Source of the DNA: Colwellia sp. TT2012
GTDB lineage: Bacteria > Pseudomonadota > Gammaproteobacteria > Enterobacterales > Alteromonadaceae
Assembly (NCBI RefSeq): GCF_001440345.1
Contig: NZ_LJYX01000021.1
Span: 496,001 to 560,000 of the forward strand
Length of the DNA: 64,000 nucleotides
Direction of reading: 5' to 3'
Shown: in pieces, positions 16,096-32,350 of the stretch
How positions within the stretch are numbered: position 1 is the stretch's first letter
Layout: every line of letters begins with the position of its first letter
Notes under the pieces: generated by a model
The model's input: the letters and a program-made list of their open reading frames with translations, nothing else
The model's database searches: none
What the model was told of the DNA's origin: nothing
Position numbers and translations under genes: made by a program

Positions 16096-16135
16096 CTTTT
16101 AAGTTAAATATCCTCCTAAAAATACTGACGGTGGC

Positions 16136-16333
16136 GTTAAGGAACTTTTCAGCCCCTTCAAAAGTTCCGGTTCTTGTGCCATCACATGGCAGCTCTAACT
16201 CTTGGTTATTCGTATTTAGCTTGAACGTCTTAGCTCCCCAAATATGTTTGATTAGACACAACACTTTGCTGTTCGTTAAGTTGGTTATAGCAAATTCGTT
16301 TTTTTCTAAGTTAGACCATGATAGTAAAAGCAT
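16136..16333 (-). pseudogene. truncated copy of the 74-residue inovirus gene
   Basis: Starting at 16333 the first 69 or so codons match the intact gene at 36445-36669 almost perfectly (for example NLEKNEFAITNLTNSKVLC and LELPCDGTRTGTFE), including its ribosome site. The 3' end is replaced by unrelated DNA that runs antisense into tRNA-Pro, so the natural stop is lost. The reading frame stays open only by reading through the tRNA genes and I treat it as broken. Confidence 0.75.
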
Positions 16334-16702
16334 TCTGTTAGTTCCTTGATGGCTTCAATTTAATGTGTACCCGTCGCGTAGCGACATAGGGGTGCGCGCT
16401 TAATTTGATGCTAATCAAACAGAGTGAGAGAATAATTTTGTCAATGAAAATCACGGAGTGTCTGGGTTATTTTCGTCTTTTTGAAAATGTTCTAGAAACC
16501 GTTATTTTACTTTACTAAATTAGGCTTGAAGCTCTTTGGAACCGTCTATTGAACTTTCTTTTGAACTTTGGGTGTGTTTGTTTAGGTAGCGAACAACGAG
16601 TTCCGAGGGCGAAGCCTGAGCAACGAGGAAGAGTAGAGAGCGGAGATGATAAACCCCCGTCATGTATTACGGGGGTAGATTCCACCATACTATGCAGCTT
16701 TT
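16136..16702 (+). repeat. direct repeat R1: copy of the inovirus right-end region
   Basis: This stretch closely matches 36462-37043 (R2). Both contain the same truncated or full small gene, the stretch GGGGTGCGCGCTTAATTTGA, the GAAGCCTGAGCAACGAGGAA segment and a perfect hairpin CCCCCGT-loop-ACGGGGG (16654-16675 here). R1 begins 40 bases after tRNA-Pro, so it looks like the leftover right end of a related filamentous phage or an ectopic recombination product. Confidence 0.88.
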
Positions 16703-17047: not shown

Positions 17048-17648
17048 AAACCACCCATCTTTAGTTTTAGGTTTTCATGCGTGTGAAAGGGTAATAGGAG
17101 AAGATATATTAAGTGGAAATAAAGGTTTTAAAGCAAGCGAAAACAGCTTTGACTGACTAGGTACTGGTATGTACTTTTGGGAAAACAGTCCCGAAAGAGC
17201 TAATGCCTACGGAATAGAACTTAAAGAAGCCCGTAAAAAGCTTAAAGACCCAATGGTTATAGGTGCAGTAATACATCTCGGTAGGTGTTTTAATCTACTA
17301 GAAGCGCAATGCCTTAGTGTACTTAAGGCGAACTACGAATCTATGAAGAGTGTATACGCCCTCCTCAAACTACCCCTCCCCACTAACGAAACAGCTTATA
17401 CAGGCGATAGCGATAAACTATTTAGAAAATTGGACTGTGCTGTTATCCAGTATATGCACTGTGAATTACTTAAACAAAATGAGAAACCCTTTGATACTGT
17501 AAGAGCCGCCTTCTGGGAAGGTGATTCACTTTACCCTGATGCAGGTTTTAAGGAAAAAAATCATATTCAGCTTTGCGTTATAAATCCAAATAGTATCAAG
17601 GGTTATTTCAGACCCTTAATAAAAGATGAAGGTTATGCAAGCGTATAA
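17040..17648 (+). pseudogene. ADP-ribosyltransferase-fold toxin gene interrupted by an internal TGA
   Basis: In one frame from ATG 17040 the product reads LVLGFHACERVIGEDIL, then SENSFD, then TGA (17154-17156), then LGTGMYFWENSPERANAYG, and continues to 17648 without another stop. The His of FHAC and the GxGxYFWE.P.RA block are the NAD-binding motifs of PARP/ART-like toxins. Relatives have Trp after FD, so TGG has become TGA, a single-base nonsense mutation between the two motifs. A restart at ATG 17169 would lack the first motif. The overlap with the preceding small gene suggests a toxin-antitoxin pair whose toxin is now dead. Confidence 0.75.
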
Positions 17649-17663
17649 CTTCCTGTTAAAGAA

Positions 17664-17751
17664 AAGTAACAAGTAATTCAAGAGGATAATTGACAGTTTC
17701 ATTCCTTTACTGCGTTCAATTATATCAAACCACTTAATTGAACATTATTAC
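17664..17751 (+). repeat. attC-like cassette recombination site, degenerate
   Basis: AGTAACAAG at the left and ACATTATTAC at the right form the outer arms. Inside, GATAATTGA pairs with TCAATTATATC, leaving one unpaired A, as in integron attC sites. The right core is ATTAT rather than GTTAT, so one key base is lost. It starts some 15 bases after the broken toxin gene and abuts the integrase remnant. A plain terminator hairpin is the alternative. Confidence 0.5.
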
Positions 17752-17752
17752 T

Positions 17753-18318
17753 CGAACTTATCATGCAGCTTATGGGGAAAAATCTGTGTATAAACTTGCC
17801 AAAGAATATTCAAGTTTCTATGTCCTGTGACTTGTGCCACTTCTTCAATGCTATAACCTTTCTCAAATAACCTAGATGCACCCTCTCGCCTTAAGTCATG
17901 ATATCTTAGGTGTTATACCCAAATCATTCCTAACACGCTGAAAACCTGCTGTTACAGACCTAGGGTTATAGGGGATATTCTATCATCCGTTTCTGTCTGC
18001 TTTTTTACTAAGTCATATGAACCAGCTAACAATGGCACGATCATATGATTACCCTCTTTTTTCCTTGGGTCTTTCCTGTCTCGTACAATTACTGTTTTAT
18101 GTGCATGGTTTAAGTCTTTCCATTCGATTTTACCAACTTCTCCTATTCTCATGCAGGTGAATATAGAAAAATTTAGAATATCAACAAAGGGAATTTTACT
18201 GTCCTGCCTTTTTGTTAATGCTGCAATTAACTTATCGAGTTCATTATCAGTAGGCCTGCGTGTTCGATTTTGACTCTACCTTGAAAAAAACCGCTAACTT
18301 CATTTCAATTAGTACAGG
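17753..18318 (-). pseudogene. remnant of the dusA-type integrase (copy 1)
   Basis: The minus strand encodes the C-terminal half of the integrase intact at 39825-40895, with recognisable segments such as RIGEV.KIEWKDLNHAHKTV and RDRKDPRKKEGNHMIVPLL. The frame is broken near 17912 (two bases lost relative to the intact gene) and elsewhere. The gene stops abruptly at 18318, where the sequence switches within the word TACAGG to an unrelated repeat, so the N-terminal half and the adjoining dusA end have been deleted. Confidence 0.9.
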
Positions 18319-18360
18319 TCATGTATTACGGAGGTATATTCCAGCAAAAAATGCGGCTTT
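18319..18360 (+). repeat. third copy of the R1/R2 tail motif
   Basis: TCATGTATTACGG, GGTATATTCCA and AAAATGCGGCTTT match the tails of R1 (from 16660) and R2 (from 37001). Here the left arm of the hairpin is missing because it is fused directly to the integrase remnant. In all three places the next gene to the right is an accessory gene on the plus strand. Confidence 0.75.
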
Positions 18361-18548
18361 GGCTAATAATCGAGTATTTCATCGATATTTACTTAAAATT
18401 ATTCACTTTCGTCGCATGACTGAAAAGTATGCATAATAAGCTGTTATATTTTTACCTCCACCAAAGTAAACGTAAAATCCTATATTTAAGTTGAAGTGTT
18501 TTTGTTTTGTTATAAACTCAAATTAATGTTTTTAAGTTTTGGTGCGTT

Positions 18549-19904
18549 ATGGCAAGAATTAGAGTTCCTATTCCTTTTACCGAATTGATGGAAAAAGTGT
18601 CCAATGAAGTTTTTATTCCGCTTTTATCTAAATATAAAGCGACGGATCTACAAGGTAATTATTTACATTGGGATAAATTTAAATGGAAAGTAGATACTGG
18701 TGATGATGAGGATGCGGCTTGGATTGCAACCAAGATATCTAGAAATTCCACTAAAAAATACATTGCAAAATTACAGGGAAAGAATGAAGGGGAGCTATTT
18801 AGTTATTGCGTACCTGATTCGCTATTTTCTCAATTACATTATATAGATACACTCACTGGCGGAGGTCACTCTATAGGTGATGGTGCATTTATTACTACAC
18901 GTGAAAAAGATAAATATTTGGTTAAAAACTTAATAATGGAAGAGGCAATAACATCTTCACAATTAGAAGGTGCTTCTACAACAAGAAAAGTTGCCAAAGA
19001 TATGCTGGAAAATAATAGAAAGCCTATTAATAAATCAGAGCAAATGATCTTTAATAATTACCTTTTAATGAAGAAGGTAGTTGAACGTAAAGATGAAGAT
19101 TTATCTATTGGATTAATTCTCGAACTACATTCTATTGCTACTTTCGAAGCAATAGATAATGATGCTATTTCAGGTGAGTTAAGAATAGATAATGATATAA
19201 CAATTAGAAATGGTTATAACGAAGTAGCGCATGAGCCGCCCTCCTTTGAATCACTTAAAGAAAGACTAACTTTATTATGCCAATTTGCTAACGAATGTAG
19301 TGATGGAAAAAATTCTGATACATTTATTCATCCATTAATTAAAGCAATAACTCTTCATTTTATGATCGGCTATATTCACCCCTTTGGTGATGGTAATGGC
19401 CGGACAGCAAGAGCATTGTTTTATTGGTTTATGCTTAGAAGTGGATATTGGCTATTTGAATATGTTTCAATTAGTAAGCTTATTCAAGAAAAAAGAAGTG
19501 ACTATGATGCGGCTTATATTTATACAGAATCTGATGACTTAGATTTAACATATTTTATCTACCATCAAGTTGATATTGTGATAAAAGCTGTAGATGCTTT
19601 GCAGAAACATATAGCAAGTAAAAAGGGTGAGTTCTATCAATTTATGGAATGGATTGATAAAAGCCCTTTATCTAAAAAATTAAAAAGAACGCAACTTGAA
19701 TTACTCAAAGATGCAATCAAAGAACCAGGGAAAATATTTACTGCTAAGCAAGTATCTGCTGAGTTTGATATTAATCAAAACACGGCTCGTACATACCTAA
19801 ATGGGTTAGTTGATGAAGACTTACTTATATCAACTAGAAGTAAAAAAGGAAAAATGATTCTTTATTTAGCACCATCAGGTCTACGGGATAAGTTAAAAAT
19901 ATAA
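18549..19904 (+). CDS. Fic family protein (AMP-transferase fold), class II
   Basis: The core Fic motif HPFGDGNGRTAR lies near residue 277, with all the catalytic residues of FIC-mediated AMPylation. An N-terminal inhibitory helix motif SSQLEG near residue 135 matches (S/T)xxxE(G/N), so the enzyme should be self-inhibited like other class II Fic proteins. A winged-helix-like C-terminal domain contains FTAKQVSAEFDINQNTARTY. It has no antitoxin partner beside it. Its stop codon lies within an attC-like site, and GTTATATTT at 18441-18450 upstream could be the preceding cassette boundary, so it is probably cassette cargo. Confidence 0.9.
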   Translation: MARIRVPIPFTELMEKVSNEVFIPLLSKYKATDLQGNYLHWDKFKWKVDTGDDEDAAWIATKISRNSTKKYIAKLQGKNEGELFSYCVPDSLFSQLHYIDTLTGGGHSIGDGAFITTREKDKYLVKNLIMEEAITSSQLEGASTTRKVAKDMLENNRKPINKSEQMIFNNYLLMKKVVERKDEDLSIGLILELHSIATFEAIDNDAISGELRIDNDITIRNGYNEVAHEPPSFESLKERLTLLCQFANECSDGKNSDTFIHPLIKAITLHFMIGYIHPFGDGNGRTARALFYWFMLRSGYWLFEYVSISKLIQEKRSDYDAAYIYTESDDLDLTYFIYHQVDIVIKAVDALQKHIASKKGEFYQFMEWIDKSPLSKKLKRTQLELLKDAIKEPGKIFTAKQVSAEFDINQNTARTYLNGLVDEDLLISTRSKKGKMILYLAPSGLRDKLKI

Positions 19905-19988
19905 CAAGTTACTCGAGCGGAAAATAATATTTGATCATCGTGCCGCGATTATAGCCAATTATTATTTTCCGTTTCACAAAGCGTTATT
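19899..19988 (+). repeat. attC-like cassette recombination site after fic
   Basis: The outer arms ATATAAC and GTTATTC enclose a perfect 12-base inverted repeat, CGGAAAATAATA (19918-19929) and TATTATTTTCCG (19960-19971). The left core overlaps the fic stop codon, as is typical in integron cassettes. The integrase remnant begins directly after the right core. Confidence 0.65.
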
Positions 19989-19989
19989 C

Positions 19990-21051
19990 ATCAAACTTGT
20001 CATGCAGATTATGCGGAAATAACTGAGTATAAACTTGCCAAAGGATATTCAAATTTCTATGGCCCTGTAACTTGTGCCACCTCTTCAATGCTATAACCTT
20101 TCTCAAACAGCCTAGACGCAGCCTATCACCTTAAATCATGATATCTTAGGTCAGTTTATACACTAAGTCCGTCCTAACACGCTGAAAACCTGCTGTTACA
20201 GACCTAGGGTTATAAGGTAAGATTCTATCATCAGTTTCTGCCTGCTTTTTTACTAAGTCATATGAACCAGCTAACAATGGTACGATCATATGATTACCCT
20301 CTTTTTTCCTTGGGTCTTTCCTGTCTCGTACGATTACTGTTTTATGTTCATGGTTTAAGTCTTTCCATTCTATTTTGCAAACTTCGCCAATTCTCATGCA
20401 GGTAAGTATTGAAAAGTTAAGAATATCAACAAAGGGAATATTACTTCCTTGCTTGTTCTGTCTTTCAGTTAATGCGGCTGTTAACTTTTCCAGTTCATCT
20501 TCTGTAGGTCTACGTGTTCGTTTTTGGCTCTTACCGACTAACTTCATTTCAATTAGTACGGGTACAGCATCTTCAAAAATTTTCCAGTTGGCCGTTACAT
20601 CAAAAACAGGTAAAGCTATTTTCATTACACTTCGTAAATAGGCAATGTCATGATAAATGGTTGCACCACCAGCCCCTGCCCCTCTCCGCATTTTACAGTG
20701 AGTTATTAAATCACTGCTTTTAAGCTGGTTTGATAATACATCTGCTATTGGGCAATCTCTTAGCATTTTCACCACGTATTGCTTAGTTCTACCAGTAGCC
20801 GCCCACAAATCAACGTCATTGATAAATAGGTCTAGTAATTCACCAATTGATATCACCTTATCTTGAGCTGTAATACTATTTAGCTCTACAGCCTCTCTGC
20901 GTATTTTGCCCCATGTTTTGGCTAATTCTTTTTTACTGAATGTTTTAGATTCTCTATGTATAATTACACCATTCTTTTTTACGCGAATTGTGCAACGGTA
21001 GCTAAAGTCTCCGTTAGCCTTTTGGCGTTTATCAATTGTTACTGATGCCAT
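19990..21051 (-). pseudogene. decayed dusA-type integrase (copy 2)
   Basis: From the ATG at 21051 the first 270 or so residues match the intact copy at 39825-40895 closely (for example the shared stretches IYHDIAYLRSVMKIA and QKRTRRPTEDELEKL). The catalytic domain is then destroyed: the frame shifts near 20150, and in the segment equivalent to HDLRREG the codons after DLR are TGA TAG. The Tyr, second Arg and His box are therefore unavailable. An upstream run of in-frame codons to 21099 is not part of the conserved protein. Confidence 0.9.
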
Positions 21052-21157
21052 TGTATTATCCTTAATCGTCCTAGCCAAAATGGGGCGCATTTGGAACACC
21101 TTAAACGGAAATTCAACGAAAGTACAGGCGATTCAAGGCGATTTAGGGTATAACCAA

Positions 21158-21247
21158 ATGACTACAATTACGACTCCAAAGCTATATAAATCAAGGCCTA
21201 CAATAGATCATAGGCTAAGTGTAGCGCCTATGCTAGATTGGACGTAA
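21158..21247 (+). pseudogene. dusA: 29-codon duplicate of the dusA 5' end (old attachment site)
   Basis: ATG 21158 opens a short frame that ends IDHRLSVAPMLDWT followed by TAA. The same residues HRLSVAPMLDWT occur at the beginning of intact dusA at 41002. DNA identity is high over 21212-21243 against 41056-41087 (29 of 32 bases) and stops right after CTAGATTGGAC. This is the scar expected when an integrase attacks the 5' end of dusA and supplies a replacement start. Confidence 0.9.
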
Positions 21248-22085
21248 ATCACTATATTTACTAGCCTCCCCTCACTCATGGAACCCTATTGGAACCATTG
21301 AAAATAAAGGAATATAAAAAGGGCCCCAAATCGAACGCCAACTGCATAGTTAATTCTGTATTCCTCGCTGAAAACTTCTTATATAGATCACTTGGATACG
21401 AAAACTGACGTTTCACTAATTAGTTTCTCTGACTTCTTTGTGCGCATTGCGGACTTTAGCTTCAAAATATTTTCCCTATATTTTCTAATGAATCACTCAC
21501 ATGATGTTACTAAGACGTCTTAGTAACACACCTTAAGCAAGTATGAACGATTATAACTAATTGAAATTACTGTGATTAATGTGTTATTACATTAACTTGT
21601 TACTGAGGCCTCTTAGTAACATCCAATTATTTATATAAAATTTACAGTGTACGGTTTCTAATATATTGATACTATGGGATATTAATATTTATGGTGCGCA
21701 CATTACTAAGACGTATCCATAATAAGCTGTTGAACTAAACCGCTTCGCGGGGAGCGACAGCTACCCGAATTTCTCTGCATTTCAGCCACATCTTACGTGT
21801 TAAAAATAGGTAGTAATAGGTTGCAGGGTGAACTAAAGTAGAAAAATAGAAAATGGATTGATCGAATCAGAGTTGATGCTGAAAAGTGTTTAAAAGGGAA
21901 TTATTTAACTCGAAGCCCCCTGAAAAACAATACCCATATTGCATAACTAGTGCCAACTAGAACGCTCTGATTACGGCTCAGTCCAACAGGACATTTATCT
22001 CTCATGCTTCGACAAGAGATAAATGCTTAATTGTTATACATTTCATCTAATTTTGTGCTCTATATAAGTCATTAAGGAAAACAAC
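21248..22085 (+). other. 838-bp non-coding cassette leader
   Basis: No gene seen. It holds a perfect 22-bp palindrome with arms GTTACTAAGAC / GTCTTAGTAAC (21506-21527) and a near-palindromic relative at 21599-21620. TTTCTAA...ACTATGGGATATTAAT and CCATAATAAG..TGTTGAAC (about 21655-21735) also occur at 25480-25570, so part of it is the same leader as in front of the DUF5677-like gene. GTTGAAC near 21733 fits the GTTRRRY cassette core. Confidence 0.55.
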
Positions 22086-23480
22086 TTGAAACTACATTTA
22101 AGTAACTTGGATGAACTTCTCCAAAAGGTTAGGAATTCCCATTCAAAGAACTATTTAAATGAAGCAATTGCTTCATACAGAATAGGTGCATATCGAGCTG
22201 CATTAATTACCACATGGATTGCTGTATGTGTTGATATTATAGAGAAAATAAAAGAATTGAGTTTAGGCGGCGATCCAATTGCGAAGCGATTAGAAGAACG
22301 TTTAAACGGTATTAATTCAAATGATCCTTCTTCGATGCTTTCTTTTGAAAGAGACATTTTAGATATGGCTTGCGATGAACTGCAATTGATATCTGCAATC
22401 GAAAAGTCACACTTAGAAAGACTTAAAAATGACAGAAATGTTTGTGCACACCCAACCTTTTCAGAGGATGGAAATCAGTTCACGCCATTAGCTGAACTTG
22501 CACTTTCATATGTAGTTCAAGCATCAAATTACCTTTTAATTCATGCGCCAGTTAAAGGAAAAGTGGTAATCCAACGCTTATTTGATTTAATTAATGAACC
22601 TTCTTTTCCGGAAAACTCAGAAAAAGCGTTCACTGTACTTTCATCCGAAAATAATTTAGGTAGAGCGAGGGAAAGTAGTATACGCAATTTATCTTTAATT
22701 TTATTAAAAAGAGTTTTTCGTGATGAAAATGGGATTAGCACTGAACTTTTAAATCGTATTTCTGCTTCTCTTGGGGCAATAGAGCGAATAGCACCTGATG
22801 TCTACAATGAAGTAATGGATAATAAATTTGGAACTATGCTTTCGATCGCCACAGATATTCAATTAATGCGAGTATTTCAATTCCTAATTACAAGAGATGT
22901 TTGGGGGAATATTGACGATGCTGAAAAAATCAGAATAGAAGGTTTAATTCAATCAATGTCTGTTGATGATCTTATAAAATACGGTGTGACAAAACTCTCA
23001 GAGTTAAATTATGAAATAAAGTCGAAGTTAATACCTGTAATTCAACAACTTAAGAATCCACAAAAATATACTTTGTTTTCATCATTCCCTTCTAAAACCT
23101 TTAAAAAGGAGGCGATAGACTTATTTATAGACTCAAGAAGTTTTGATAGTGCTGAGTTGAGAGGAGCAAATATTTTAATTCCTATCGCAAAGCATTTTAA
23201 TGACGATGACTTTAACCAAATATTTGAAGGGGCTTTAAGTAACACAGGCTCATATGGTCATAATCAGATCCTTTATGCTGGAGATATAGGTTCATTTTTT
23301 GCAAACTTATATCAAGAATCAAAAAACTGTGAAGTTGATTATAAAAGTCTTTGGAAAGGGTTTAAAGACAAATTAGAAGCTAAAGGTGTCGATTATCCAC
23401 CTTTAGATGAATTACTTATTGTCGACCAAATAATTGAAAAAGAGGTAGTACAAGAAGAAGTTACAACACCTGCGCTCTAA
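22086..23480 (+). CDS. HEPN-domain protein of unknown role
   Basis: A 464-residue soluble protein. The N-terminal 160 residues are helical and resemble a HEPN domain: AYRAALITTWIAVCVDIIEK early on, then LERLKNDRNVCAHP, which has the RX4H (R-NVCA-H) motif of HEPN ribonucleases. The rest is helical without a motif I recognise. It starts with a TTG or ATG-type codon after AAGGAAAACAAC. It ends just before a good attC-like site, so it is the cargo of a cassette. HEPN nucleases act in toxin-antitoxin and phage-abortive systems, but the activity here is inferred. Confidence 0.6.
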   Translation: MKLHLSNLDELLQKVRNSHSKNYLNEAIASYRIGAYRAALITTWIAVCVDIIEKIKELSLGGDPIAKRLEERLNGINSNDPSSMLSFERDILDMACDELQLISAIEKSHLERLKNDRNVCAHPTFSEDGNQFTPLAELALSYVVQASNYLLIHAPVKGKVVIQRLFDLINEPSFPENSEKAFTVLSSENNLGRARESSIRNLSLILLKRVFRDENGISTELLNRISASLGAIERIAPDVYNEVMDNKFGTMLSIATDIQLMRVFQFLITRDVWGNIDDAEKIRIEGLIQSMSVDDLIKYGVTKLSELNYEIKSKLIPVIQQLKNPQKYTLFSSFPSKTFKKEAIDLFIDSRSFDSAELRGANILIPIAKHFNDDDFNQIFEGALSNTGSYGHNQILYAGDIGSFFANLYQESKNCEVDYKSLWKGFKDKLEAKGVDYPPLDELLIVDQIIEKEVVQEEVTTPAL

Positions 23481-23482
23481 AT

Positions 23483-23579
23483 ACATAACAAGCGTTTCAA
23501 CAGGACAAATAACCGTTGCTTTTGCTCCTGCGTCGCTATTATAACCAACTATTATTTGCCCGTTAAACGGGCGTTATAT
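23483..23579 (+). repeat. attC site of an integron-type cassette
   Basis: The best of the set. ACATAAC (23483-23489) and GTTATAT (23573-23579) are the outer cores. CGTTT pairs with AAACG, and GGACAAATAA pairs with TTATTTGCC, leaving an unpaired A, which is the extrahelical-base arrangement that integron integrases recognise. The order and length (97 bp) match chromosomal integron sites of vibrios and relatives. Confidence 0.75.
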
Positions 23580-23653
23580 GCCTGAGTAATTAGGTTGTAC
23601 GTTATATTAATAATTTTTTATTTAAAACAATAAACCTTCAATAAGGAAGTTCA

Positions 23654-25111
23654 ATGAGTCGCTGGATCGAACAGTTTGAAAATCACCCTTTTCAAACCAC
23701 TTGGAAAGAAATCATTAAAGTAACCGAAAATGTTGATGTTGATGATAGTACTGTTGTTACCAGCGTTGAGGATGTAGCCAGACTTAAAAAGGTGATAACT
23801 TATTTAAATGGATTGTTAGATGCGTGCGATCCTGAATTGATACCACAATCAACATGGCAAAACTTTCATACTCAAACCACCCCTTGCTTGCAGCAAATTA
23901 CTACCTATCAAAGCAATAGAAATATTGCTCATATAACGCAAGCCAATGCTCATTTAGATAACTTATTAACATACCTAAGACCGTATCAGGTTGTTGTAGG
24001 GAAAGCTGCTAAATCTGCAAGTGCATCGTTTATTACTTATACAAAAACCATAAATTCTAATCTTACTTCTTTTCAAGACCAAGCTAGATCAATTTTGATA
24101 GAAATTGGTGAGTATAAAGATAAAGCTTTAAGTGATGCTGAAGAATCAAGCTTGTCGAGTGTGCGAATTAAAGAATTAGCGGCGGGTTACTTTGATGATA
24201 CAGAGGAAGAAAGTTTAAGCTCAAAAATTAATAGATTTGAAACGCAACTTGAGGAAAACTATGAAAAGATCAAGAGTTATAAAGTTGAATTGATTGATGG
24301 TGACTCTGGTAATGAGTCTATCGCATCAGAAATAAAAAGTGCACTTAAGATTGCCGAAATTGACTCTGAAACCATAAAGAGTCTAATGAATGACGTAAAA
24401 ACAAAACTTTCTGATTTTAAAGGTTATTATACTGATGTGTTTGGCTTGAAAAATGATGAGGGTGAATTTGAAGGCGGACTTAAAGATGAAATAACTGCTA
24501 GAGAAAAACATCTTGAAGAATTTAAAAAGCAACAAGAAATCAAATATAAAACTCTTAATGATGAAATTGAAAGTCTCTTACCCGGTGCGACAAGTGCTGG
24601 TTTAGCTTCTGCATACCATGAATTAAAAGAATCATTTGATACACCAATTAAAAATTATTCAAAATTGTTTTATGGATCCATTACAGCCTTGATGCTGGTT
24701 TCGTTTATATCCATAACTCAAGAATTAGGATTATTTTTTATTAAGTTTGTGGATGTATCGGATTTTAGTAAATTAACTTCAAATATATTATTTAAGCTAC
24801 CTATTATTATTCCTATATTATGGCTTACTTTGTTTGTATCAAAAAGGCGTAGTGAAGCATTAAGGCTTCAACAGGAATACGCGCATAAGGAAGCTTTAGC
24901 AAAATCATATCAAAGTTTCAAAATACAAATTGAAGCTTTAGAGCAGGCCGACCCTGAATTAATGAAAAAACTATTAAACTCTACCATCGATGCAGTTTCT
25001 AAAAATGCTTCTGATACTCTTGATAAAAATCATGGAGATAAAACGCCTGTTCATGAAGGCGTTGATGGTTTAATTAGCTCTATAGAAAAAATTAAAAAAG
25101 TATTTCTATAG
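23654..25111 (+). CDS. coiled-coil membrane protein, unknown function
   Basis: A 485-residue protein I cannot assign to a family. The first 320 residues are soluble and rich in heptad-like helices. Two hydrophobic segments follow, FYGSITALMLVSFISI near 340 and ILFKLPIIIPILWLTLFV near 375. A final 100 residues, partly coiled-coil (RRSEALRLQQEYAHKEALA), complete it. With both long parts probably on the same side, it resembles membrane-anchored sensors or effectors found in defence islands. AAGGAAG precedes the start. It is the only gene between two attC-like sites. Confidence 0.6.
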   Translation: MSRWIEQFENHPFQTTWKEIIKVTENVDVDDSTVVTSVEDVARLKKVITYLNGLLDACDPELIPQSTWQNFHTQTTPCLQQITTYQSNRNIAHITQANAHLDNLLTYLRPYQVVVGKAAKSASASFITYTKTINSNLTSFQDQARSILIEIGEYKDKALSDAEESSLSSVRIKELAAGYFDDTEEESLSSKINRFETQLEENYEKIKSYKVELIDGDSGNESIASEIKSALKIAEIDSETIKSLMNDVKTKLSDFKGYYTDVFGLKNDEGEFEGGLKDEITAREKHLEEFKKQQEIKYKTLNDEIESLLPGATSAGLASAYHELKESFDTPIKNYSKLFYGSITALMLVSFISITQELGLFFIKFVDVSDFSKLTSNILFKLPIIIPILWLTLFVSKRRSEALRLQQEYAHKEALAKSYQSFKIQIEALEQADPELMKKLLNSTIDAVSKNASDTLDKNHGDKTPVHEGVDGLISSIEKIKKVFL

Positions 25112-25129
25112 ATCTTAAATAAGTGGCTT

Positions 25130-25233
25130 GGAGTAACTATAAGGGTTTTCAAGTCGGACAAAAAACAGTTGGCTGTTTCACTCCGTTCACAATTTTAGCC
25201 AACTGCAATTTTCGGCTTAAAACGGTGTTATCG
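25130..25233 (+). repeat. attC-like site after the coiled-coil gene
   Basis: GAGTAAC at the left and GTTATCG (25227-25233) at the right are the outer cores. GTTTTCAAG faces CTTAAAAC, CGGACAAAA faces TTTTCGG with an unpaired base, and CAGTTGGC pairs with GCCAACTG. This is the standard layered attC fold. Confidence 0.65.
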
Positions 25234-25601
25234 ATACAAAAGCTAATCCAAATCAACGTTACAGATTAAAAGCTAATGTCCGTTGTGTGGTAAGAGTGAT
25301 CCTTAGCGTGTGATCAATAACCAACTACAAACAGCTCACCGCTAATGACTTCTTGGTGCGCATTGAAGACATTAGAGTTAAGTTTTTTGCCATATATTTT
25401 CTAATGAATTATTGGTGTCTTATTGCTGAGAATTCACAGTAACATCCAAACTCTAACAAAAATAAAATATTTGTAGTTTCTAAATATTTGAAACTATGGG
25501 ATATTAATGTGAATTAAATAAAGGTTATGGGGCGGACATTACTGGAAAGTCTCCATAATAATTGTTAGAAATTTATTGGAATTGGGAACATGAAGTAAAG
25601 T
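25227..25601 (+). repeat. shared cassette leader (copy 1) before the DUF5677-like gene
   Basis: The stretch beginning GTTATCGATACAAAAGCTAA is repeated with small changes at 26599 and 28039. Its middle, GGTGCGCATTGAAGACATTAG and CATATATTTTCTAATGAATTA, recurs at 21436 and 26744. No ORF is conserved in it, so it is probably promoter-bearing cassette DNA. Confidence 0.65.
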
Positions 25602-26534
25602 ATGCAGAGATCTTTTATTGAAAAATATGCTGATAACCGACGATTAAAAAGAATGCTAAAAGATCTCCCCGAATCATCAACCCTGAAATACAAAAATGTT
25701 AAGGATTTCGTTGATACCTATAGGGTACTTTTTACAAGAACTAGCAAAATTTGTCATAAGTTGATTAGTAGTATGGAGCTTAAAGAGTTATATTCGCCTT
25801 CAATGCTTATACCTGCAACATTAACCCTACATTATTTATTTGAACGAGTAGTAGTTACACCTTTCCATGTAATAAATACTTTTACTCGAGATCCAATGTA
25901 TGCGCATTCAGATATAGCTGCACTAAATCGAGGGCTTTTTGAATCAGCTGTAAACGCATGCTTTTTAGTTTCTAAAGATAATGACTTGAGATTTAAGAAA
26001 TTTTTCGCTACGTCTTTAAAACAAGAGCATCACATTCAAAAGTCTATGGATAAATGGATTGATTCAGAGAACCCTAAGATTAAAATGACTTCTAATAAAC
26101 AACGTAATATCAAAAACGCTACAAATAATAAAGTCGTTGAAGAGTTAAAGGATCTTATAGGTGATGTTGGCCAATTCCCTAATATTTGGGAACGATGTGA
26201 AGCGTTAGGAGAGGATTGGATGTTTGACTATGATAGTAAGTATCGTGGGTTATCAGCTTGGCAACATGGAGATGTCAGTCGTGTTTTTATAACACATAGT
26301 ATGAAGCAATTAGATTCATCTGAAGCTGAACGGCCTGTATTTGAATCGATGGCGCAATGCTCTTGGGCATGGGATATTATGTTTAAATACGCTTTTACTA
26401 TACAAAAAGTATGTAATCTTCCGGAAATAAGTGAAGAGCTTGCATATTTAAATCACATAGGTTATCAAGCTATGAAAAAAAATCTGAGTTCAGCGGTTAA
26501 TAAATTTCAAGGTTCTGTTGAAGAAAGTGCCTAA
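25602..26534 (+). CDS. DUF5677-like protein
   Basis: A 310-residue soluble protein. The central part ALNRGLFESAVNACFLV, followed by a downstream WQHGDVSRVF, has the layout I associate with DUF5677 proteins: a helical domain with an E-rich first helix and a late aromatic-His motif. That family is thought to be HEPN-like, but the RX4H motif is not clear here. It lies between shared leader repeats and a site ending in GTTATCG, so it is cassette cargo. Function unknown. Confidence 0.5.
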   Translation: MQRSFIEKYADNRRLKRMLKDLPESSTLKYKNVKDFVDTYRVLFTRTSKICHKLISSMELKELYSPSMLIPATLTLHYLFERVVVTPFHVINTFTRDPMYAHSDIAALNRGLFESAVNACFLVSKDNDLRFKKFFATSLKQEHHIQKSMDKWIDSENPKIKMTSNKQRNIKNATNNKVVEELKDLIGDVGQFPNIWERCEALGEDWMFDYDSKYRGLSAWQHGDVSRVFITHSMKQLDSSEAERPVFESMAQCSWAWDIMFKYAFTIQKVCNLPEISEELAYLNHIGYQAMKKNLSSAVNKFQGSVEESA

Positions 26535-26535
26535 T

Positions 26536-26605
26536 CGGGTAGCCAGAGGTATCTAGCCTCCAGCCCCACACCACCCTATATGCGGCTCCGCACATGGCGT
26601 TATCG
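26536..26605 (+). repeat. divergent cassette end with GTTATCG core
   Basis: The right core GTTATCG (26599-26605) is identical to the sites at 25227 and 28039, but the left half is unlike an attC: it reads AGCCAGAGGTATCTAGCCTC and CCACACCACCC, with a TGCGGCTCCGCA hairpin. It may be an attC in which the left arm has been replaced. Confidence 0.35.
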
Positions 26606-26977
26606 ATATAAAATCTAATCCAAATCACCGCTACTGATTAAATGCTAATGTCAGCAAAGTGGTACTTACCGCCCTTAGCATCTGATGTTAAAAAATCAGT
26701 AAATTTCAAATGAAGTAGCCCTTTTGCTAAGGGTAACTTTGTGCGCATTAGAGACATTAACTAAATGTTATTTGTCATACTTTTTCTAATGTTTAAGTGC
26801 TAATAACATGAACGAAGGCAAAAGCCTCTATTTCATGTTTTCATTTAATTAGTCAATAGTCTAATAAGTTGATTCTTTTGTCTTTATCTATATTCTATGT
26901 AACCATATTATTATGAAAGAGCGCAAAGCCAATATTTAAACAAGGGTTTTTACCTTACAATATGCGGTTAGGCTTTA
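26599..26977 (+). repeat. shared cassette leader (copy 2)
   Basis: GTTATCGATATAAAATCTAA to about 26680 repeats the leader at 25227, and TTGTGCGCATTAGAGACATT at 26744 repeats the middle block. The rest is AT-rich and unique. There is no gene in it. Confidence 0.6.
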
Positions 26978-27457
26978 ATGGAGAGTTCCGTGGACGTTGA
27001 GTTAAATTGGAGAGCTATTTCTGCCGTTATCACCACAATTGCAGTGATTGTTGCGTTAATTCCTTTATATCAAAGTGGGCTCAGAAATAAGGCAAAAGCT
27101 AAAAACCTTAGAATCAGGATTGCTGCTAAAATATTTTCGTTAAAACCGACCTTAGTTTCTATTTGTGAAGGTAAAGATTACAAATTTAATCCTCTTGTTA
27201 TTTTCACACCCACTAAATTAGATGAGTTTCTATCTGACTTAACAGGGCTAATGAAAGAAGCTGAGGTTTTAGAGCCAGATGAACAAGATTTACTTTCTAG
27301 TTATTATATTAATGTTGAACTAATGATCCCCTTAATTAAAGGAGAGCAGCTTGAAAAAAAAGGTGCCGAAAGTATTCAAATGATAGCGGATAGGCTCACG
27401 AATACTATGGAAGATTATGGTCTCTTGCATAGTGAACCGCATCAGCCTTGGAAATAA
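26978..27457 (+). CDS. small membrane-anchored protein, unknown
   Basis: A 159-residue protein with one N-terminal membrane segment (AISAVITTIAVIVALIPLY, residues 12-30), followed by a soluble helical domain. No family recognised. A GGAGAGTTCC-type sequence surrounds the start, so an internal ATG or GTG could be the true one. GCCTAAC right after the stop looks like a cassette left core but has no partner before the next gene, so the site between the two genes may be deleted. Confidence 0.6.
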   Translation: MESSVDVELNWRAISAVITTIAVIVALIPLYQSGLRNKAKAKNLRIRIAAKIFSLKPTLVSICEGKDYKFNPLVIFTPTKLDEFLSDLTGLMKEAEVLEPDEQDLLSSYYINVELMIPLIKGEQLEKKGAESIQMIADRLTNTMEDYGLLHSEPHQPWK

Positions 27458-27530
27458 AGCCTAACAAATAAGAATAGGTGTCAGCGCAATCACTGTAGTT
27501 GTATTCCAATAAATTATTTTAGAGGCATAA

Positions 27531-28022
27531 ATGATCGACCCAACAGAGTGGATATGTAATAAAGAAAGCACTTATTCTAATTTAAGCCCAGATGAGAAAA
27601 AAGCTATCGGTGAATTTTTCCTAATATGGAGCTACTTTGAATCGGAAGTTTTGAGCTGTAATGGGAATAGAACTAGCTTTACAAGTTTAGCTAGCGCTTT
27701 ACTAGATTCTGAAAAAATATCAGATATAGGGTTGGATGAACTTGTTGTCTATTTTCAGAACCGATATGTCTCTGGTGGTGTATTCAATGATAAGTATGAT
27801 GCTTTAGAACTCGAAAAAAGTCGAAACCCACCTGAAGTAGATGAAATGTTATTAAATGGAACTAGCCAGCAGGTAACAAAGTTAATTGGCTGTTTATTCA
27901 TTGTTTATCGCTTTAGAAATAACCTATTTCATGGTCCTAAATGGCGTTATAAGCTTTCCGAACAAGAAAGTAACATGAGTAAAGCTTGCCAGTTTATGAT
28001 TAAAATTATAGATAATACATAA
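27531..28022 (+). CDS. HEPN-like small protein
   Basis: A 163-residue soluble helical protein. Near the C-terminus, YRFRNNLFHGPKW carries R-NNLF-H, the RX4H motif of HEPN domains, and the N-terminal FFLIWSYFESEV fits the first HEPN helix. This is the second RX4H protein in the cassette region, after 22086-23480. GAGGCATAA precedes the ATG. A ribonuclease or toxin role is inferred from the family only. Confidence 0.55.
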   Translation: MIDPTEWICNKESTYSNLSPDEKKAIGEFFLIWSYFESEVLSCNGNRTSFTSLASALLDSEKISDIGLDELVVYFQNRYVSGGVFNDKYDALELEKSRNPPEVDEMLLNGTSQQVTKLIGCLFIVYRFRNNLFHGPKWRYKLSEQESNMSKACQFMIKIIDNT

Positions 28023-28045
28023 CAAGTGACTATGGTTAGTTATCG
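28018..28045 (+). repeat. collapsed attC site
   Basis: CATAACAAG at the stop codon and GTTATCG (28039-28045) have the two outer cores of an attC site, but only about 15 bases lie between them. The folded stem has been lost by deletion. The leader copy GTTATCGATACAAAATCTAA follows directly and extends to about 28115. Confidence 0.5.
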
Positions 28046-28192
28046 ATACAAAATCTAATCCAAATCAACGCTACTTGTTAAAAGCTAATGTCAGCAATGT
28101 GGTAAAAGTGACCACAACTTAGATTGCTATATAGTTAATAGGCTTAGTAGTGATTTTATGAGCTAGGCCAAAAACTAATAAGAGAACATTAA

Positions 28193-28909
28193 ATGAATCG
28201 CTACATAAAAAACATCATTGCCATAGTAATCTTATCTCTTATTTCAACCGCTACTTATGCCGCAACCAATAAGGTTGTTAGCTTTAGTACAGCTAAGAAA
28301 AAGATGTATTCTAAAGTGTTCAATAATACAGGTGATACGCTATATTGTGGTTGTAATTGGTCAGCTAGAAAGACAGATTTAAATAGTTGTGGCCTACAAA
28401 GTTTCTTCCCTAAAAAACAAAGAAAACGTGCTCTTAGAACAGAAGCAGAACATATTATCCCTGCATCTTGGATGCTTAAAGTTAACAACAAAACAAGGCA
28501 ATGTGCCATTGATTCTAAAGCAGTAAAAGACAGTGCGCGTAAATATTGTCAAAAGCATGATTTAGATTATAAACAAGCCCATAACGATTTAGTAAATTTG
28601 TACCCTGCTGTGGGTCAAGTCAATGCTGACCGTTCTAATAAGCCATTTGTCGATGTTGCTAAGAACAAAGTTAAGACCTACGGAAAATGTGATATTGAAA
28701 TAGGTTCAAGAGGAATTGTGCCACCTTCCGATAAGAAAGGTGATATTGCTAGAGTCGCTTTTTATATGACAGAAGCCTACGGAGTTACTTATTCACAAAG
28801 GCAGCTTCAGTTGTTCAAGCAATGGGATAGACAAGATCCCATTTCAGCACAAGAAAGGGCACATAACAGGCGTGTTGTTAAAGTTCAGGGCTTTGGATTA
28901 AAGCAATAA
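28193..28909 (+). CDS. secreted endonuclease I (EndA/Dns family)
   Basis: A periplasmic or secreted non-specific nuclease. A signal peptide (residues 1-22, ending TYA) leads into the endonuclease I domain with the catalytic RTEAEHIIPASWM around residue 80 and the metal-binding LVNLYPAVGQVNADRSNKPF around 141. Cysteines at 51, 53 and elsewhere fit the disulfide-bonded family. Host relatives (endA, dns) are core genes, but this copy is behind a cassette leader, so it may be an acquired extra copy. It ends about 90 bp before the inovirus repressor. Confidence 0.85.
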   Translation: MNRYIKNIIAIVILSLISTATYAATNKVVSFSTAKKKMYSKVFNNTGDTLYCGCNWSARKTDLNSCGLQSFFPKKQRKRALRTEAEHIIPASWMLKVNNKTRQCAIDSKAVKDSARKYCQKHDLDYKQAHNDLVNLYPAVGQVNADRSNKPFVDVAKNKVKTYGKCDIEIGSRGIVPPSDKKGDIARVAFYMTEAYGVTYSQRQLQLFKQWDRQDPISAQERAHNRRVVKVQGFGLKQ

Positions 28910-29001
28910 ACTTATACGGGCGAGTAAACGTCCCCCTACCTTCTAAAGATAATAGGATGTAAAACAGAGAATAGAACAACAAGAAAGCTTAGTTTTTGAA
29001 A

Positions 29002-29613
29002 TTACATTCTTTGTCCTGACCAAACTACTCGTCCAATAATTTCCATATCTGTTCCATCTAGGTTTGCTTTATTGATTTCCCAAGATTCGTAGATTTTATT
29101 GTCTGATTTCACTTTGATAATTCCGTTAGGCAACATTTGTAAGCGTTTAACGAGTAAGTTTTGCTCGTGTCGCATTACATAAATCCCATCACTTAAGCCA
29201 TTAAAATGCTTATTCACCATTATCATGGCACCGTTCTTTAATGTCGGGTACATACTGTCACCATCTACTAACATCAAAAACACATCATTGGCGTTTACAC
29301 CAATTTCTTTATTTAACCACTCTGGCTCGAAGCTAATTAAGTTAGCTTGCTCTTCTACTTCTATCAACGCCCCTACTCCTGCCGAAGCTGATATTTCATA
29401 AAAAGGAAGGCTAATACGAGTATCAATATTTACGTTTGAATCGGTTTGGATTGAAAGTTCTGCCTTTCGGAATGCACTGGCAGGAATTTTTTTCCGACCT
29501 CTCCATGTTCTTATTGTGGTTGGAGAAACCCCTAGCGCTTCAGATAACTCACTAATCCTACTCGTTTTAGTTGTTTTAAATAAATCATCTAATTGTTTAT
29601 CAAAATCATCCAC
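29002..29613 (-). CDS. LexA/CI-type phage repressor (HTH plus S24 peptidase)
   Basis: A 203-residue regulator. The N-terminal HTH reads ISELSEALGVSPTTIRTW (about residues 18-35). The C-terminal S24 domain has the self-cleavage pair: Ser in VDGDSMYPTLKNG and Lys in LLVKRLQ. A GVGA-like segment (SAGVGALIEVEE) fits a cleavage region. Such repressors are inactivated by RecA after DNA damage. It is divergent from the PrtN-like gene and probably binds the operators in the 134-bp gap. Confidence 0.9.
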   Translation of the reverse strand: MDDFDKQLDDLFKTTKTSRISELSEALGVSPTTIRTWRGRKKIPASAFRKAELSIQTDSNVNIDTRISLPFYEISASAGVGALIEVEEQANLISFEPEWLNKEIGVNANDVFLMLVDGDSMYPTLKNGAMIMVNKHFNGLSDGIYVMRHEQNLLVKRLQMLPNGIIKVKSDNKIYESWEINKANLDGTDMEIIGRVVWSGQRM

Positions 29614-29644
29614 ACTATTTTCCTTTAAAATAAAGTTGCAAAAC

Positions 29645-29686
29645 GCTCCATTATGAAATAGTATCTTTATGGAGCGATACGGAGCG
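29645..29686. promoter_or_regulatory. operator cluster between repressor and activator genes
   Basis: GCTCCAT (29645-29651) and ATGGAGC (29669-29675) form an inverted repeat, and a further GGAGCG follows at 29681. Placement between the divergent repressor and lytic genes suggests repressor binding; the identity of the binder is inferred. Confidence 0.6.
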
Positions 29687-29747
29687 GTTAGAGTCTATTG
29701 CAGTCGCTTTGAATTGCTTTAACCCTAAATGATTACATAGGTGATAT

Positions 29748-30005
29748 ATGAATACAAATTTCGCACTTCTAGCTCGCTTTGAATCTCCAGTAATAGAACT
29801 GAAAGACGTTTGCCAGGAGTTCTTCGGTATTACCGTAAAAACGGCTAAGCAAAAAATTAAAGGCCAAGATTTCCCTGTACCTACTTTCAGCTTAATCAAA
29901 TCTGAGCGCTCTCCTGTATTTATAAAAGTAGAAGATTTAGCGAATTATATCGACAAACAATATCAAATTGCCTCGAAAGAATGGCAACAAGTGCATACGG
30001 CTTAA
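29748..30005 (+). CDS. PrtN-like pyocin activator family protein
   Basis: An 85-residue protein with the PrtN-family pattern: LLARFESPVIELKDVCQEFFG, then KTAKQKIKGQDFPVPTF and VEDLANYIDKQ. PrtN activates pyocin genes in Pseudomonas after DNA damage; phage-borne homologues are usual first lytic genes. It is divergent from the S24 repressor, so the pair could form an SOS-responsive switch. The next gene starts four bases after its stop. Confidence 0.8.
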   Translation: MNTNFALLARFESPVIELKDVCQEFFGITVKTAKQKIKGQDFPVPTFSLIKSERSPVFIKVEDLANYIDKQYQIASKEWQQVHTA

Positions 30006-30009
30006 TGTT

Positions 30010-30210
30010 ATGCGCATTGAAATTTACTACGAGAGCGACCCCATCATGGGCGTAAATGTCACTTACGACTTTAACGGAAAACGTCATTATGATTTTTTCA
30101 GTTCTCTGTATCTATTCAATGTGTGGGCTTCATCTGAATTTTATAATTCTGAATTAATTGAAATTACTAACAGCAATTATCCGCAGTTAGCGCAGCAAGG
30201 GAAACTCTAA
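30010..30210 (+). CDS. small inovirus protein, unknown
   Basis: A 66-residue protein starting MRIEIYYESDPIMGV. No family recognised. The ATG at 30010 follows the PrtN-like stop directly, and its TAA overlaps the ATG of the replication gene (TAATG), which indicates a real translated gene in the early operon. It could be a replication accessory protein. Confidence 0.7.
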   Translation: MRIEIYYESDPIMGVNVTYDFNGKRHYDFFSSLYLFNVWASSEFYNSELIEITNSNYPQLAQQGKL

Positions 30211-31409
30211 TGAAAGTTAGCAATAAAAAAGATGTTTATACCCAAACTGCTGAGGCTTTAATGGCTCACGAAAAATCTGATGCTATCAAAATAGATCACT
30301 TAGCTTTTGCTTTTCCTATTACTGCACTTCGTCATTGTCGTACAGCCGGGGCTGCTAATTTACAAATGGACTTAGTCACCGGTTATAAGAAATCATTTTT
30401 TACTAACAAGGACGTTCCCCAAATAACGCGTATTAAACGCTATGGTATTTACCCAAAGCCACCTGTAATCAAATCTAGTCGGGCTTTAGGTATTGCTGAA
30501 TATGAAGCGCATAAAGATAAAGTCGCTGAATTAATGACTGACTTTTACGAAAGAACATTAAAAGTTTGGGTAAATAGCGTATTAGGTTTTGAAATGTCAC
30601 CTATGCGTGGTCGTGGTTTACATGGCTATAAAGACTCAATGACCTTACGTTCTAATGGCGTAGAAGTTGGCTTCATTGGCCTAGGTGGTCAACGCGATAC
30701 CATTTACTTTCAAATTTCGGGTACTGGCTGTAAGTCATTATTCAGCCATATAACGCCATTCGTTATGCATCACTGGCTATCCAAAGTATTTACCGTCACC
30801 AAGTTAAGTCGTGTCGATTTAGCCTTTGATGATTATGACGAAAACTTTGATTGCGACTATGCCGAAAAAGCTTACAAGGACGGTTGGTTTAGAACCTCCA
30901 ATAGAGGGCAGTCGCCAACCATTAACCCTAATAACAAATACACCTACGATAGCGACTTGAACAAAGTTTTCACGCAAGAAATGGTTTGTGTCGGCTCTCG
31001 TACCTCGCTTATTTATTGGCGCATATATAACAAGAAATTAGAGCAAGGCATTAAACAAGATAACTTTTCTTGGTATCGCTCTGAGGCTGAATTAAAGAAA
31101 TGGTCTGTTGATTGTTTACTTAACTTAGCCGCTACGTTTGCTGGCCTATGCCCTTTCGCTGCCTCTGTTGATTTAGACAAAGGCGTAAGAACTAGGTCAA
31201 TGAGTAAAGTAAAAGAGGTTTGTCTTGATGTAGCTTCTCGCGTTCGTCACGTTCGCCGCTCTGCTGGTAAAGCCTTGGGCGATATCTTAGAAATATTTCA
31301 AGGCGATATTGCACACACAATGGGTTTAATTTTACCCGAAGAAACAGGCGGTAAACTCGGAATACCGCCAACCTATCAACAATTAATCAACAAAGTTATA
31401 GAGGTTTAA
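30210..31409 (+). CDS. inovirus replication initiation protein (RstA/Rep_trans-like)
   Basis: A 399-residue protein with LSRVDLAFDDYDENFDCDY near residue 200 and GVEVGFIGLGGQRDTIYFQ before it, the pattern of the replication initiation factor family to which RstA of CTX phage belongs. Such proteins nick the plus strand and start rolling-circle replication; the catalytic tyrosine is not identified by eye. It is the longest early gene and is coupled to the preceding gene by TAATG. Confidence 0.8.
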   Translation: MKVSNKKDVYTQTAEALMAHEKSDAIKIDHLAFAFPITALRHCRTAGAANLQMDLVTGYKKSFFTNKDVPQITRIKRYGIYPKPPVIKSSRALGIAEYEAHKDKVAELMTDFYERTLKVWVNSVLGFEMSPMRGRGLHGYKDSMTLRSNGVEVGFIGLGGQRDTIYFQISGTGCKSLFSHITPFVMHHWLSKVFTVTKLSRVDLAFDDYDENFDCDYAEKAYKDGWFRTSNRGQSPTINPNNKYTYDSDLNKVFTQEMVCVGSRTSLIYWRIYNKKLEQGIKQDNFSWYRSEAELKKWSVDCLLNLAATFAGLCPFAASVDLDKGVRTRSMSKVKEVCLDVASRVRHVRRSAGKALGDILEIFQGDIAHTMGLILPEETGGKLGIPPTYQQLINKVIEV

Positions 31410-31410
31410 C

Positions 31411-31767
31411 ATGTCGAATAAAATCATTTTATGTGGTCTGCAAATTACCAGTTTTCCTGAAAGTAAAAACCCTGATGCTGAATCAGCATTATTACTAATG
31501 CTTTATCCCTTGGAAAACGTAAACGCGCCAAAATTCAAACGTAAAGCGGTAGGCCAATCAACTGAAACGCCCTTTGGTAAACAGTCGTTATGCATTAACG
31601 CTAAATACGCTCACCTACTTATTGATACTGGTGCCTTTGTTTCAAACAAAGAGTATGACCTTGTCGTGGGTTTCAACACGGACACTTTTGAAAATGAGAT
31701 TTCAAAAATCACACCGGTTGACCCTGCTGTTAAAAAGCATTTTGACGAATGTTTGAGTAGTAAATAA
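31411..31767 (+). CDS. candidate single-stranded DNA-binding protein (pV/RstB analogue)
   Basis: A 118-residue protein immediately after the replication initiator, the usual place of the ssDNA-binding protein in inoviruses. The sequence is beta-rich with alternating charged and hydrophobic residues and no signal peptide. No conserved motif lets me confirm the assignment, so it is based on size and position. Confidence 0.55.
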   Translation: MSNKIILCGLQITSFPESKNPDAESALLLMLYPLENVNAPKFKRKAVGQSTETPFGKQSLCINAKYAHLLIDTGAFVSNKEYDLVVGFNTDTFENEISKITPVDPAVKKHFDECLSSK

Positions 31768-31769
31768 TT

Positions 31770-32027
31770 ATGTCAGTTTGCGTATTTATACATAGCTCTG
31801 GAACTTTAAAAGTATCTGCGGAAACTGACTGTACAGAATTTGTTTTATTGAATCAGGTTGAATTTCAAAATTTACAATCTGGCTCATTACAACAAATGAA
31901 TGAAACTCTGCACTTACTTTTTGCGTTTGATGCAGAGTTATTTGGAGTCGTTGAGGGGGCTATGATTTTTGCTTTCTTAACATCACATTTCGGTGGACGT
32001 GTTGTTCGCTGGTTAGGTAAATCTTAA
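31770..32027 (+). CDS. small membrane protein before the coat gene
   Basis: An 85-residue protein with a soluble N-terminal half and one membrane segment (LFGVVEGAMIFAFLTSHFGG, residues 57-76), ending with a basic tail RVVRWLGKS. In filamentous phages this position holds small structural or assembly proteins such as pIX/pVII-like caps. No family recognised. Confidence 0.65.
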   Translation: MSVCVFIHSSGTLKVSAETDCTEFVLLNQVEFQNLQSGSLQQMNETLHLLFAFDAELFGVVEGAMIFAFLTSHFGGRVVRWLGKS

Positions 32028-32038
32028 AGGATAAAAAC

Positions 32039-32254: not shown

Positions 32255-32324
32255 GTGGTCACAACAATCTTACTCGCTTGTTGCTTTTACTATTGCATGG
32301 TTGAGGGCTTTACAAGCGGAATCA

Positions 32325-32350
32325 GGACTTCTTAGAAGTCCTTTTTTTTC
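32325..32350 (+). terminator. terminator behind the coat gene
   Basis: GGACTTC-TTA-GAAGTCC followed by eight T residues. Filamentous phages characteristically terminate strongly after the coat gene to give high coat but low adsorption-protein expression. Confidence 0.92.

Follow-up and report, generated by a model that had tools for sequence, protein, structure and literature searches.

Integrons are usually viewed either as large sedentary arrays or as carried by transposons and plasmids. Clusters of attC sites lacking an integron integrase are termed CALINs; in integrons of the Tn402 type, one inverted repeat adjoins intI at its 3' end and another follows the last cassette, and the integron mobilization unit, bounded by miniature inverted-repeat transposable elements, has short inverted ends around an integron without a transposase of its own. 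Passages of further sources describe dusA islands, in which a tyrosine integrase lies at the 5' end of dusA and imperfect direct repeats serve as attachment (att) sites (PMC4482086, PMC8409611), as well as delta-attI-type cassettes, in which an attI fragment replaces attC behind the gene (PMC12901181), and Vibrio gene-less promoter cassettes, in which a non-coding stretch lies between cassettes (PMC11014356). Here we describe a locus within a 64 kb stretch of the Colwellia sp. TT2012 genome (positions 496001-560000 of contig C156 in a 4.42 Mb assembly; hereafter, the window), in which positions 21436-28105 probably represent decayed, attI-led integron modules that lack intI, form part of dusA islands and hold predicted anti-phage genes.

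A preliminary description had listed five folded sites behind genes pointing the same way, interpreted them as attC, and called for an attC covariance search on both strands. Searching both strands of the window, with filters off, using a covariance model (R1) trained on 13 attC from arrays beside IntI (loci L010, L011 and L012; none from the window) recovered four of the five, all on the plus strand, with E-values that should be taken as rough: 23483-23581 (80.7 bits, E 1.2e-18), 25135-25235 (62.8 bits, E 7.4e-14), 17664-17752 (36.0 bits, E 9.8e-7) and 19899-19991 (34.9 bits, E 1.9e-6). In these four, the model recognised the R''/R' cores with the GTT crossover and the L arms, and the genes with sites all lie on the plus strand, as had been stated. 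Three of the four also match on the minus strand (24.0, 15.7 and 14.9 bits), which is their palindromes seen in mirror image. The fifth site, 28018-28045 (+), is a collapsed attC remnant accepted from context alone (TAACAAG...GTTATCGATAC): the corresponding match at 28017-28043 (12.0 bits, E 2.4) is the next-best on the plus strand after the four and, by score, is noise.

Folding of single strands gave an attC-shaped bottom strand at 23485-23580 (z -2.73, with 1 of 200 shuffles equal), where the top strand is also stable (z -2.59), and two strong strands at 19900-19990 (z -3.14 bottom, -2.97 top). At 25129-25235 (z -1.61 bottom, -2.00 top) and 17643-17760 (z -1.96 bottom, -1.31 top), folding is unconvincing by itself, and this weak excess over shuffles is what speaks for ordinary terminators or chance hairpins, of which the preliminary description had named terminators as its own refutation. 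Against this alternative stand the E-values of 1e-18 to 2e-6 obtained with a model trained elsewhere, the clear alignment with array attC of the sites, which are of the same attC type as the genome's own integron, and a terminator scan of 21200-28300 that found none at 23483 or 25130 (17664 and 19899 lie outside the scanned range). We consider terminators or chance hairpins exceedingly improbable and, judging from sequence, regard the window sites as belonging to genuine integron attC cassettes.

No integron integrase was detected at the locus, as none of the 14 matches to TIGR02249 in this genome (E <= 0.001) falls on contig C156. One full IntI is encoded on C216 (457 bits) and a second, with one stop, on C197. 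The 12 further matches score under the cut-off, and six of them, 40-97% like the main IntI, are relic-like, a label reserved for matches at least 40% like it; weak matches to this profile are unspecific, given that all 14 control genomes match at E <= 0.001, none over the cut-off, and four of them at E <= 1e-20. The genome also holds at least 150 attC by R1, a floor because 150 is also the number that R1 scored out of 2,700 candidates. With an intact IntI and these attC elsewhere, 'without integrase' describes the locus but not the cell.

The notion of an attC cluster without an integrase thus stands insofar as the contig has no intI and the attC appear genuine, and is incomplete in one respect: two attI-like sites precede the cassettes, so that by content the locus comprises attI and cassettes without intI, more than an attC cluster. 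It shares with CALINs several attC in a row (two or more, with no intI nearby) and genes in one orientation, and differs in having attI-like sites and end motifs that bracket its blocks. As to the parts of a complete integron, a functional intI beside attI is missing (no TIGR02249 match on C156), whereas attI leading the cassettes is present, as two putative sites recognised by their homology to sequence upstream of an intact integrase gene of a second type, intI-B, at locus L113.

In the proposed module order, an L1b end opens the unit, attI comes next, then at least one gene with attC, and an L1a end closes it. On the plus strand of the window, module 1 would run from L1b at 21436-21493 (nhmmer) through attI-like site 1 at 21652-21731 (crossover between G21729 and T21730; the model match ends at 21727 and was extended to the GTT), with palindromes upstream at 21503 and 21596, to L1a at 25227-25293, which starts at the attC crossover (GTTATCGATAC). 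Module 2 comprises L1b at 25352-25409 (nhmmer), attI-like site 2 at 25472-25566 (crossover between G25564 and T25565; model match to 25561, extended likewise) and L1a at 26599-26664, with no recognisable attC before it, and module 3 comprises L1b at 26737-26791, with no attI recognised after it, the collapsed attC remnant at 28018-28045 and L1a at 28039-28105 (nhmmer); of the three, module 1 alone contains recognisable attC. A degenerate attI tail (CATAATAAGCTGTTA) at 18403-18446, before the Fic gene described below, came from a repeat search and was missed by the attI model.

Some part of this leader DNA matches in all 39 Colwellia genomes searched, including this one, a few only at E about 1e-4. 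In loci chosen for carrying the motifs, with overlaps removed by sequence only, L1b and L1a alternate in 74 of 84 successive same-strand pairs (47 b-a, 27 a-b, 7 a-a and 3 b-b); b-to-a gaps span 0.46-6.6 kb (median 1.4 kb), and 21 of the 27 a-to-b gaps are at most 74 bases. Four modules stand in a row in L189, three in L119, and three in L050, the last of these without L1a within the stretch examined. L1a homology starts at the attC crossover with GTTA in 11 of 12 loci from the first matches and with TTTA in the other. In a sample drawn with an L1a 17-mer (30 of 55 matches, from 17 of the 39 genomes, at most two per genome), the L1a start coincides with the end of an attC match (E <= 0.01) in 18 loci, and 17 loci show GTTAT; the internal 17-mer read backwards, as a control, had no match.

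Separately, an IMG/VR contig with similarity in the Zot region (L079, 12178-13123) carries attC, L1a and an endonuclease I gene in succession, 91% like window positions 28039-28916, and thus shows the window's attC/L1a junction in another contig.

Three related genomes encode four intact integrases (L109, L110, L112 and L113) that share 39-42% identity with the main IntI; the one at L112 is a candidate intI-B only, counted by its identity to the main IntI. All four keep the residues that we take to be catalytic, and near each intI start lies a CTGTAT...ATACAG palindrome, presumably a LexA box. The region upstream of intact intI-B matches the attI regions of the window in full in L113 and in part in L109 and L110 (contig end). 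L113 contains a whole module: L1b at 4227-4281 adjoins intI-B at 4294-5244 (minus strand), followed by attI at 5479-5570, attC at 6380, 6785 and 7122, a collapsed attC recognised by eye, and L1a at 8233, with a second L1a 334 bp further on. Relics of intI-B adjoin L1b in L033 and L119, and repeats from the window's cassette block recur beside IntI relics elsewhere in the same genome. The ancestral module would have held intI-B between L1b and attI, as L113 still does. As a side observation, tyrosine-recombinase genes 27-29% like IntI lie antisense between attC in L043 (2898-3629) and L038 (15858-16472) and are possible cassette-borne recombinases.

Alignment of 34 distinct attI sites on the GTT, which come from related genomes and are not independent, showed conservation up to G/TTA (column majority 0.45-1.0) and a drop beyond it to about 0.3-0.5, with one column at 0.71, a fall that is favoured because the sites came from a model ending there. 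Upstream palindromes of the form TTACTnAG....CTnAGTAA share their core with the attI core, by eye, in 19 of the 20 sites holding both, in classes of 13, 3 and 3 sites, with L075 the unclear one; the 14 other distinct sites, which lacked the palindrome or the attI core by pattern, were dropped from this comparison.

The modules sit within dusA islands. An intact dusA-associated integrase (39825-40895, minus strand; PF00589, 2.3e-22) lies beside dusA (40573-42012, plus strand; PF01207, 5.6e-88; att core 41057-41089), and a distal att copy with a TGGAAC-n-TTGGAAC arm occupies 21213-21300 (plus strand), its core at 21224-21243 matching 41068-41087 inside dusA, with none arising from shuffles. An integrase adjoining dusA and an att repeat derived from the dusA 5' end are thus both in place. 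Two older integrase copies lie on the minus strand: a degraded dusA-type tyrosine integrase at 20146-21099 (PF00589; 85% to the intact copy over its full length, with two stops) and a C-terminal remnant at 17734-18320 (identified by repeats D1/D3/D12 and alignment). Together, the three integrase copies and the att core copy constitute tandem islands, the outermost left end of which was not found in the window. The integrase at the dusA 5' end and the imperfect direct att repeats agree with the dusA islands in the passages of PMC4482086 and PMC8409611; the Colwellia islands differ in carrying attI-led integron cassettes, and the integron-related passages of these two papers do not report integrons in dusA islands. 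Among the best-ranked, mainly open-access literature matches, no paper addressed integrons in dusA islands or Colwellia integrons.

The placement of cassettes inside a dusA-integrase island, which the preliminary description had put forward as not known to it, is borne out by the integrase copies and att core that flank them and recurs in other Colwellia genomes. Relatives of the dusA integrase occur in 14 of the 39 genomes, including this one, at E <= 1e-60. Nine of the 13 others were compared; in these nine, the relatives adjoin dusA, and about 12-19 kb of the island side was covered, except at three loci on 6-7 kb contigs (G006, G023 and G029). In G012, the interval from the integrase to the distal att copy contains attI and two attC, and a third attC lies beyond that copy (L196 18489-18579); in G016, this interval contains only a degenerate attI. 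On the island side of the integrase, G010 has attI and five attC, and G029 attI and two attC. No attI or attC was found on the covered island side in G022, G021, G006 and G023. An attI-like site begins 409 bp (window), 163 bp (G012) and 166 bp (G016, degenerate) inward of the distal att; that is, within about 410 bp in three of the four islands with an end found, one of these sites being degenerate, and it is absent in G021.

Two of the window attC, at 17664 and 19899, directly adjoin integrase copies 1 and 2 (the first remnant and the second, degraded integrase) at their 3' ends, and copy 3 has none. At the dusA-integrase 3' end in G011 lies one weak attC (L193 14325-14411, 23.9 bits, E 0.005), which shares this position and marks a possible insertion hot spot. 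Such sites are what would be expected if the locus were a plain CALIN, with cassettes of the genome's own integron inserted at attG in the island by IntI in trans and with the attI-like, L1a and L1b sequences as mere leader DNA of the cassettes: their exact position fits one preferred insertion site, the intact IntI and at least 150 attC would provide source and enzyme, and L1a mostly occurs without L1b and attI behind it. That account explains 17664 and 19899 well, but 21436-28105 poorly, since palindromes of one kind accompany both the leader attI and the stretch upstream of intact intI-B in L113, and L1b has relics of intI-B beside it at the two loci named above. For the locus as a whole, we think it unlikely.

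The module ends bear on a further possibility. Consensus edges drawn by eye, GTGCGCATTGCGGACATTAGC for L1b and GCTAATGTCCGCAATGTGGTA for L1a, are inverted copies over about 15 bases, and the inverted motif CATTGCGGACATTAGC / GCTAATGTCCGCAATG stands, imperfectly, at the outer edges of L1b and L1a. In genome G000, an L1b...L1a block (L047) lies between two genes read from sequence as putative ahpC and oxyR, where the intergenic space without a block measures 208 bp in G019 and about 227 bp in G009; by eye, an L1b end stands at this spot in G023. The exact ends of the G000 block are hidden because another dispersed repeat adjoins it. This repeat (L047, about 7576-7960) has many partial matches in the same genome and in relatives.

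These blocks may be transposon-like mobile integrons, with CATTGCGGACATTAGC and GCTAATGTCCGCAATG acting as terminal inverted repeats for a transposase or for IntI-B, a reading that extends the module interpretation and is compatible with it. The inverted motifs at both outer edges, the alternation of the ends, the lack of any opposite-strand L1b in 29 sampled loci, and the G000 block and G023 end set against the short spaces in G019 and G009 all argue for it. On the other side, only about 15 inner repeat bases are alike, no transposase was seen among the cassette genes scanned, with no search aimed at transposition genes made, the G000 block has no attI or attC match inside, and no target duplication was seen in what is one occupied/empty comparison with ends blurred by the neighbouring repeat. 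On balance, we hold it a serious possibility that stops short of probable. Imperfect inverted motifs by the intI 3' end and after the last cassette recall the Tn402 type, from which the modules differ in having a different repeat, in their chromosomal dispersal and the lack of visible transposition genes or target duplication; short inverted ends and no visible transposase of their own recall the integron mobilization unit, from which they differ in their many diverged copies across the genus and in ends that adjoin attI and the intI 3' end.

Our preferred reading of attI-led, intI-less modules builds on what is observed: the attC identity, the homology that the attI-like sites share with sequence preceding an intact intI-B, the order of the module parts, and the islands. 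Several other observations weigh against it, among them those just given on target duplication and on the G000 block, and the want of a recognisable attC in module 2 and attI in module 3. At 12 of the 30 L1a loci in the sample, among them collapsed and unrelated contexts, the boundary carries no attC match, and L1b follows within 200 bp of only 16 of 74 distinct L1a, and attI within 600 bp of 11, so that module parts are often apart. Upstream of intact intI-B, the attI model gives a full fit in L113 alone, a partial one in L109 and L110 and none in L112, and the last three of these loci have neither L1a nor L1b beside the gene. Of 54 attI model matches, 15 lacked the GTT at the expected place and were left out before the alignment. 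An empty attI/L1a junction is absent from 232 loci examined, no exact one is among the matches listed for G000-G029, and at up to two mismatches there are 192 matches versus 127 for the reversed control. As for the islands, the distal att copies of G016 and G021 are weak (3 of 19 core bases differ), and the stretch covered in G010 and G029 showed no distal end.

An earlier candidate, a single mobile unit of L1a, L1b and attI set between attC and a gene and moving as a circle, was weakened by the missing attI/L1a junction and dropped because L1b follows so few L1a; the order of L1b, attI, cassettes and L1a replaced it.

Under the module reading, 21436-28105 would be a row of three short decayed modules without intI, occupying the distal end of an integrative island specific to dusA; a further two cassettes, 17169-17752 and 18549-19991, would lie against the 3' ends of the two older copies of the dusA integrase. 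The cassettes may have been captured at attI by IntI, either IntI-B before its loss or the cell's other IntI in trans, and the island, moved by the dusA integrase, could carry the modules and two predicted anti-phage genes between strains. Recombination activity, supply of integrase in trans, transfer, and independent movement of modules via their inverted-repeat ends would all be parts of such a scheme.

The cargo genes all lie on the plus strand. The two predicted defence genes are a presumed cassette with a SoFic-like Fic-domain gene at 18549-19904 (PF02661, 9.9e-16; PADLOC SoFic, 1.2e-41) and a PD-T7-3-like cassette gene at 22086-23480 (PADLOC, 1.1e-34), the PADLOC names denoting candidate defence families. 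Further cassette genes encode a 485-aa protein (23654-25111; open reading frame (ORF), no match in a Pfam scan) and a DUF5677 protein (25602-26534; PF18928, 4.4e-10), and three ORFs are presumed cassettes: 17169-17648, with no Pfam family above the cut-off, 26978-27457 and 27531-28022. In a search of the 39 genomes that took in the PD-T7-3-like and DUF5677 genes only, both were present at E <= 1e-20 in this genome alone. A suspected remnant of a group II intron at 26535-26600 had no Rfam match and is not claimed.

The arrangement of attI and attC in one array is shared with the delta-attI-type cassettes in the passages of PMC12901181; there the attI fragment stands behind the gene, whereas the Colwellia attI precedes it, as in an integron platform. 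Likewise, the leaders resemble the promoter cassettes in the passages of PMC11014356 in being a non-coding stretch that could, putatively, drive the next gene, and differ in carrying attI and, in relatives, intI relics. A promoter scan of 21200-28300 found 18 against 29.1 expected in shuffles and gave no support for promoters.

Beyond the modules, 29002-35631 holds filamentous prophage genes for an S24 repressor, a replication initiator, a single-stranded DNA-binding protein, and Ace-like and Zot-like proteins. Direct repeats of about 580 bp at 16126-16701 and 36462-37042, with pieces 72-98% alike, are also matched in the viral contig L079 and are possibly ends of prophage copies. A molybdenum/tungsten cofactor riboswitch lies at 2186-2379 (62.1 bits).

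What is new here is that a module with defined ends is repeated and recurs in islands; the mobility of this module is putative. A broader picture, which we offer tentatively and regard as somewhat doubtful, is that Colwellia has compact integrons with inverted-repeat ends, mostly stripped of their integrase, that spread as units, line up in tandem, place an attI before each cassette set and ride dusA islands, dispersed in many copies, unlike one large sedentary array. Many small attI-led modules seem to exist in one genus separately from its main array, some of them inside islands that bear their own integrase and predicted anti-phage genes. Because the core of attI seems to change in step with the palindromes near it, the natural series of modules with intact intI-B, with relics and without intI lends itself to the study of attI specificity. 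Provided that the modules work as docking sites for an integrase acting in trans, an island could take up defence genes from the host's cassette store, release them again and export them.

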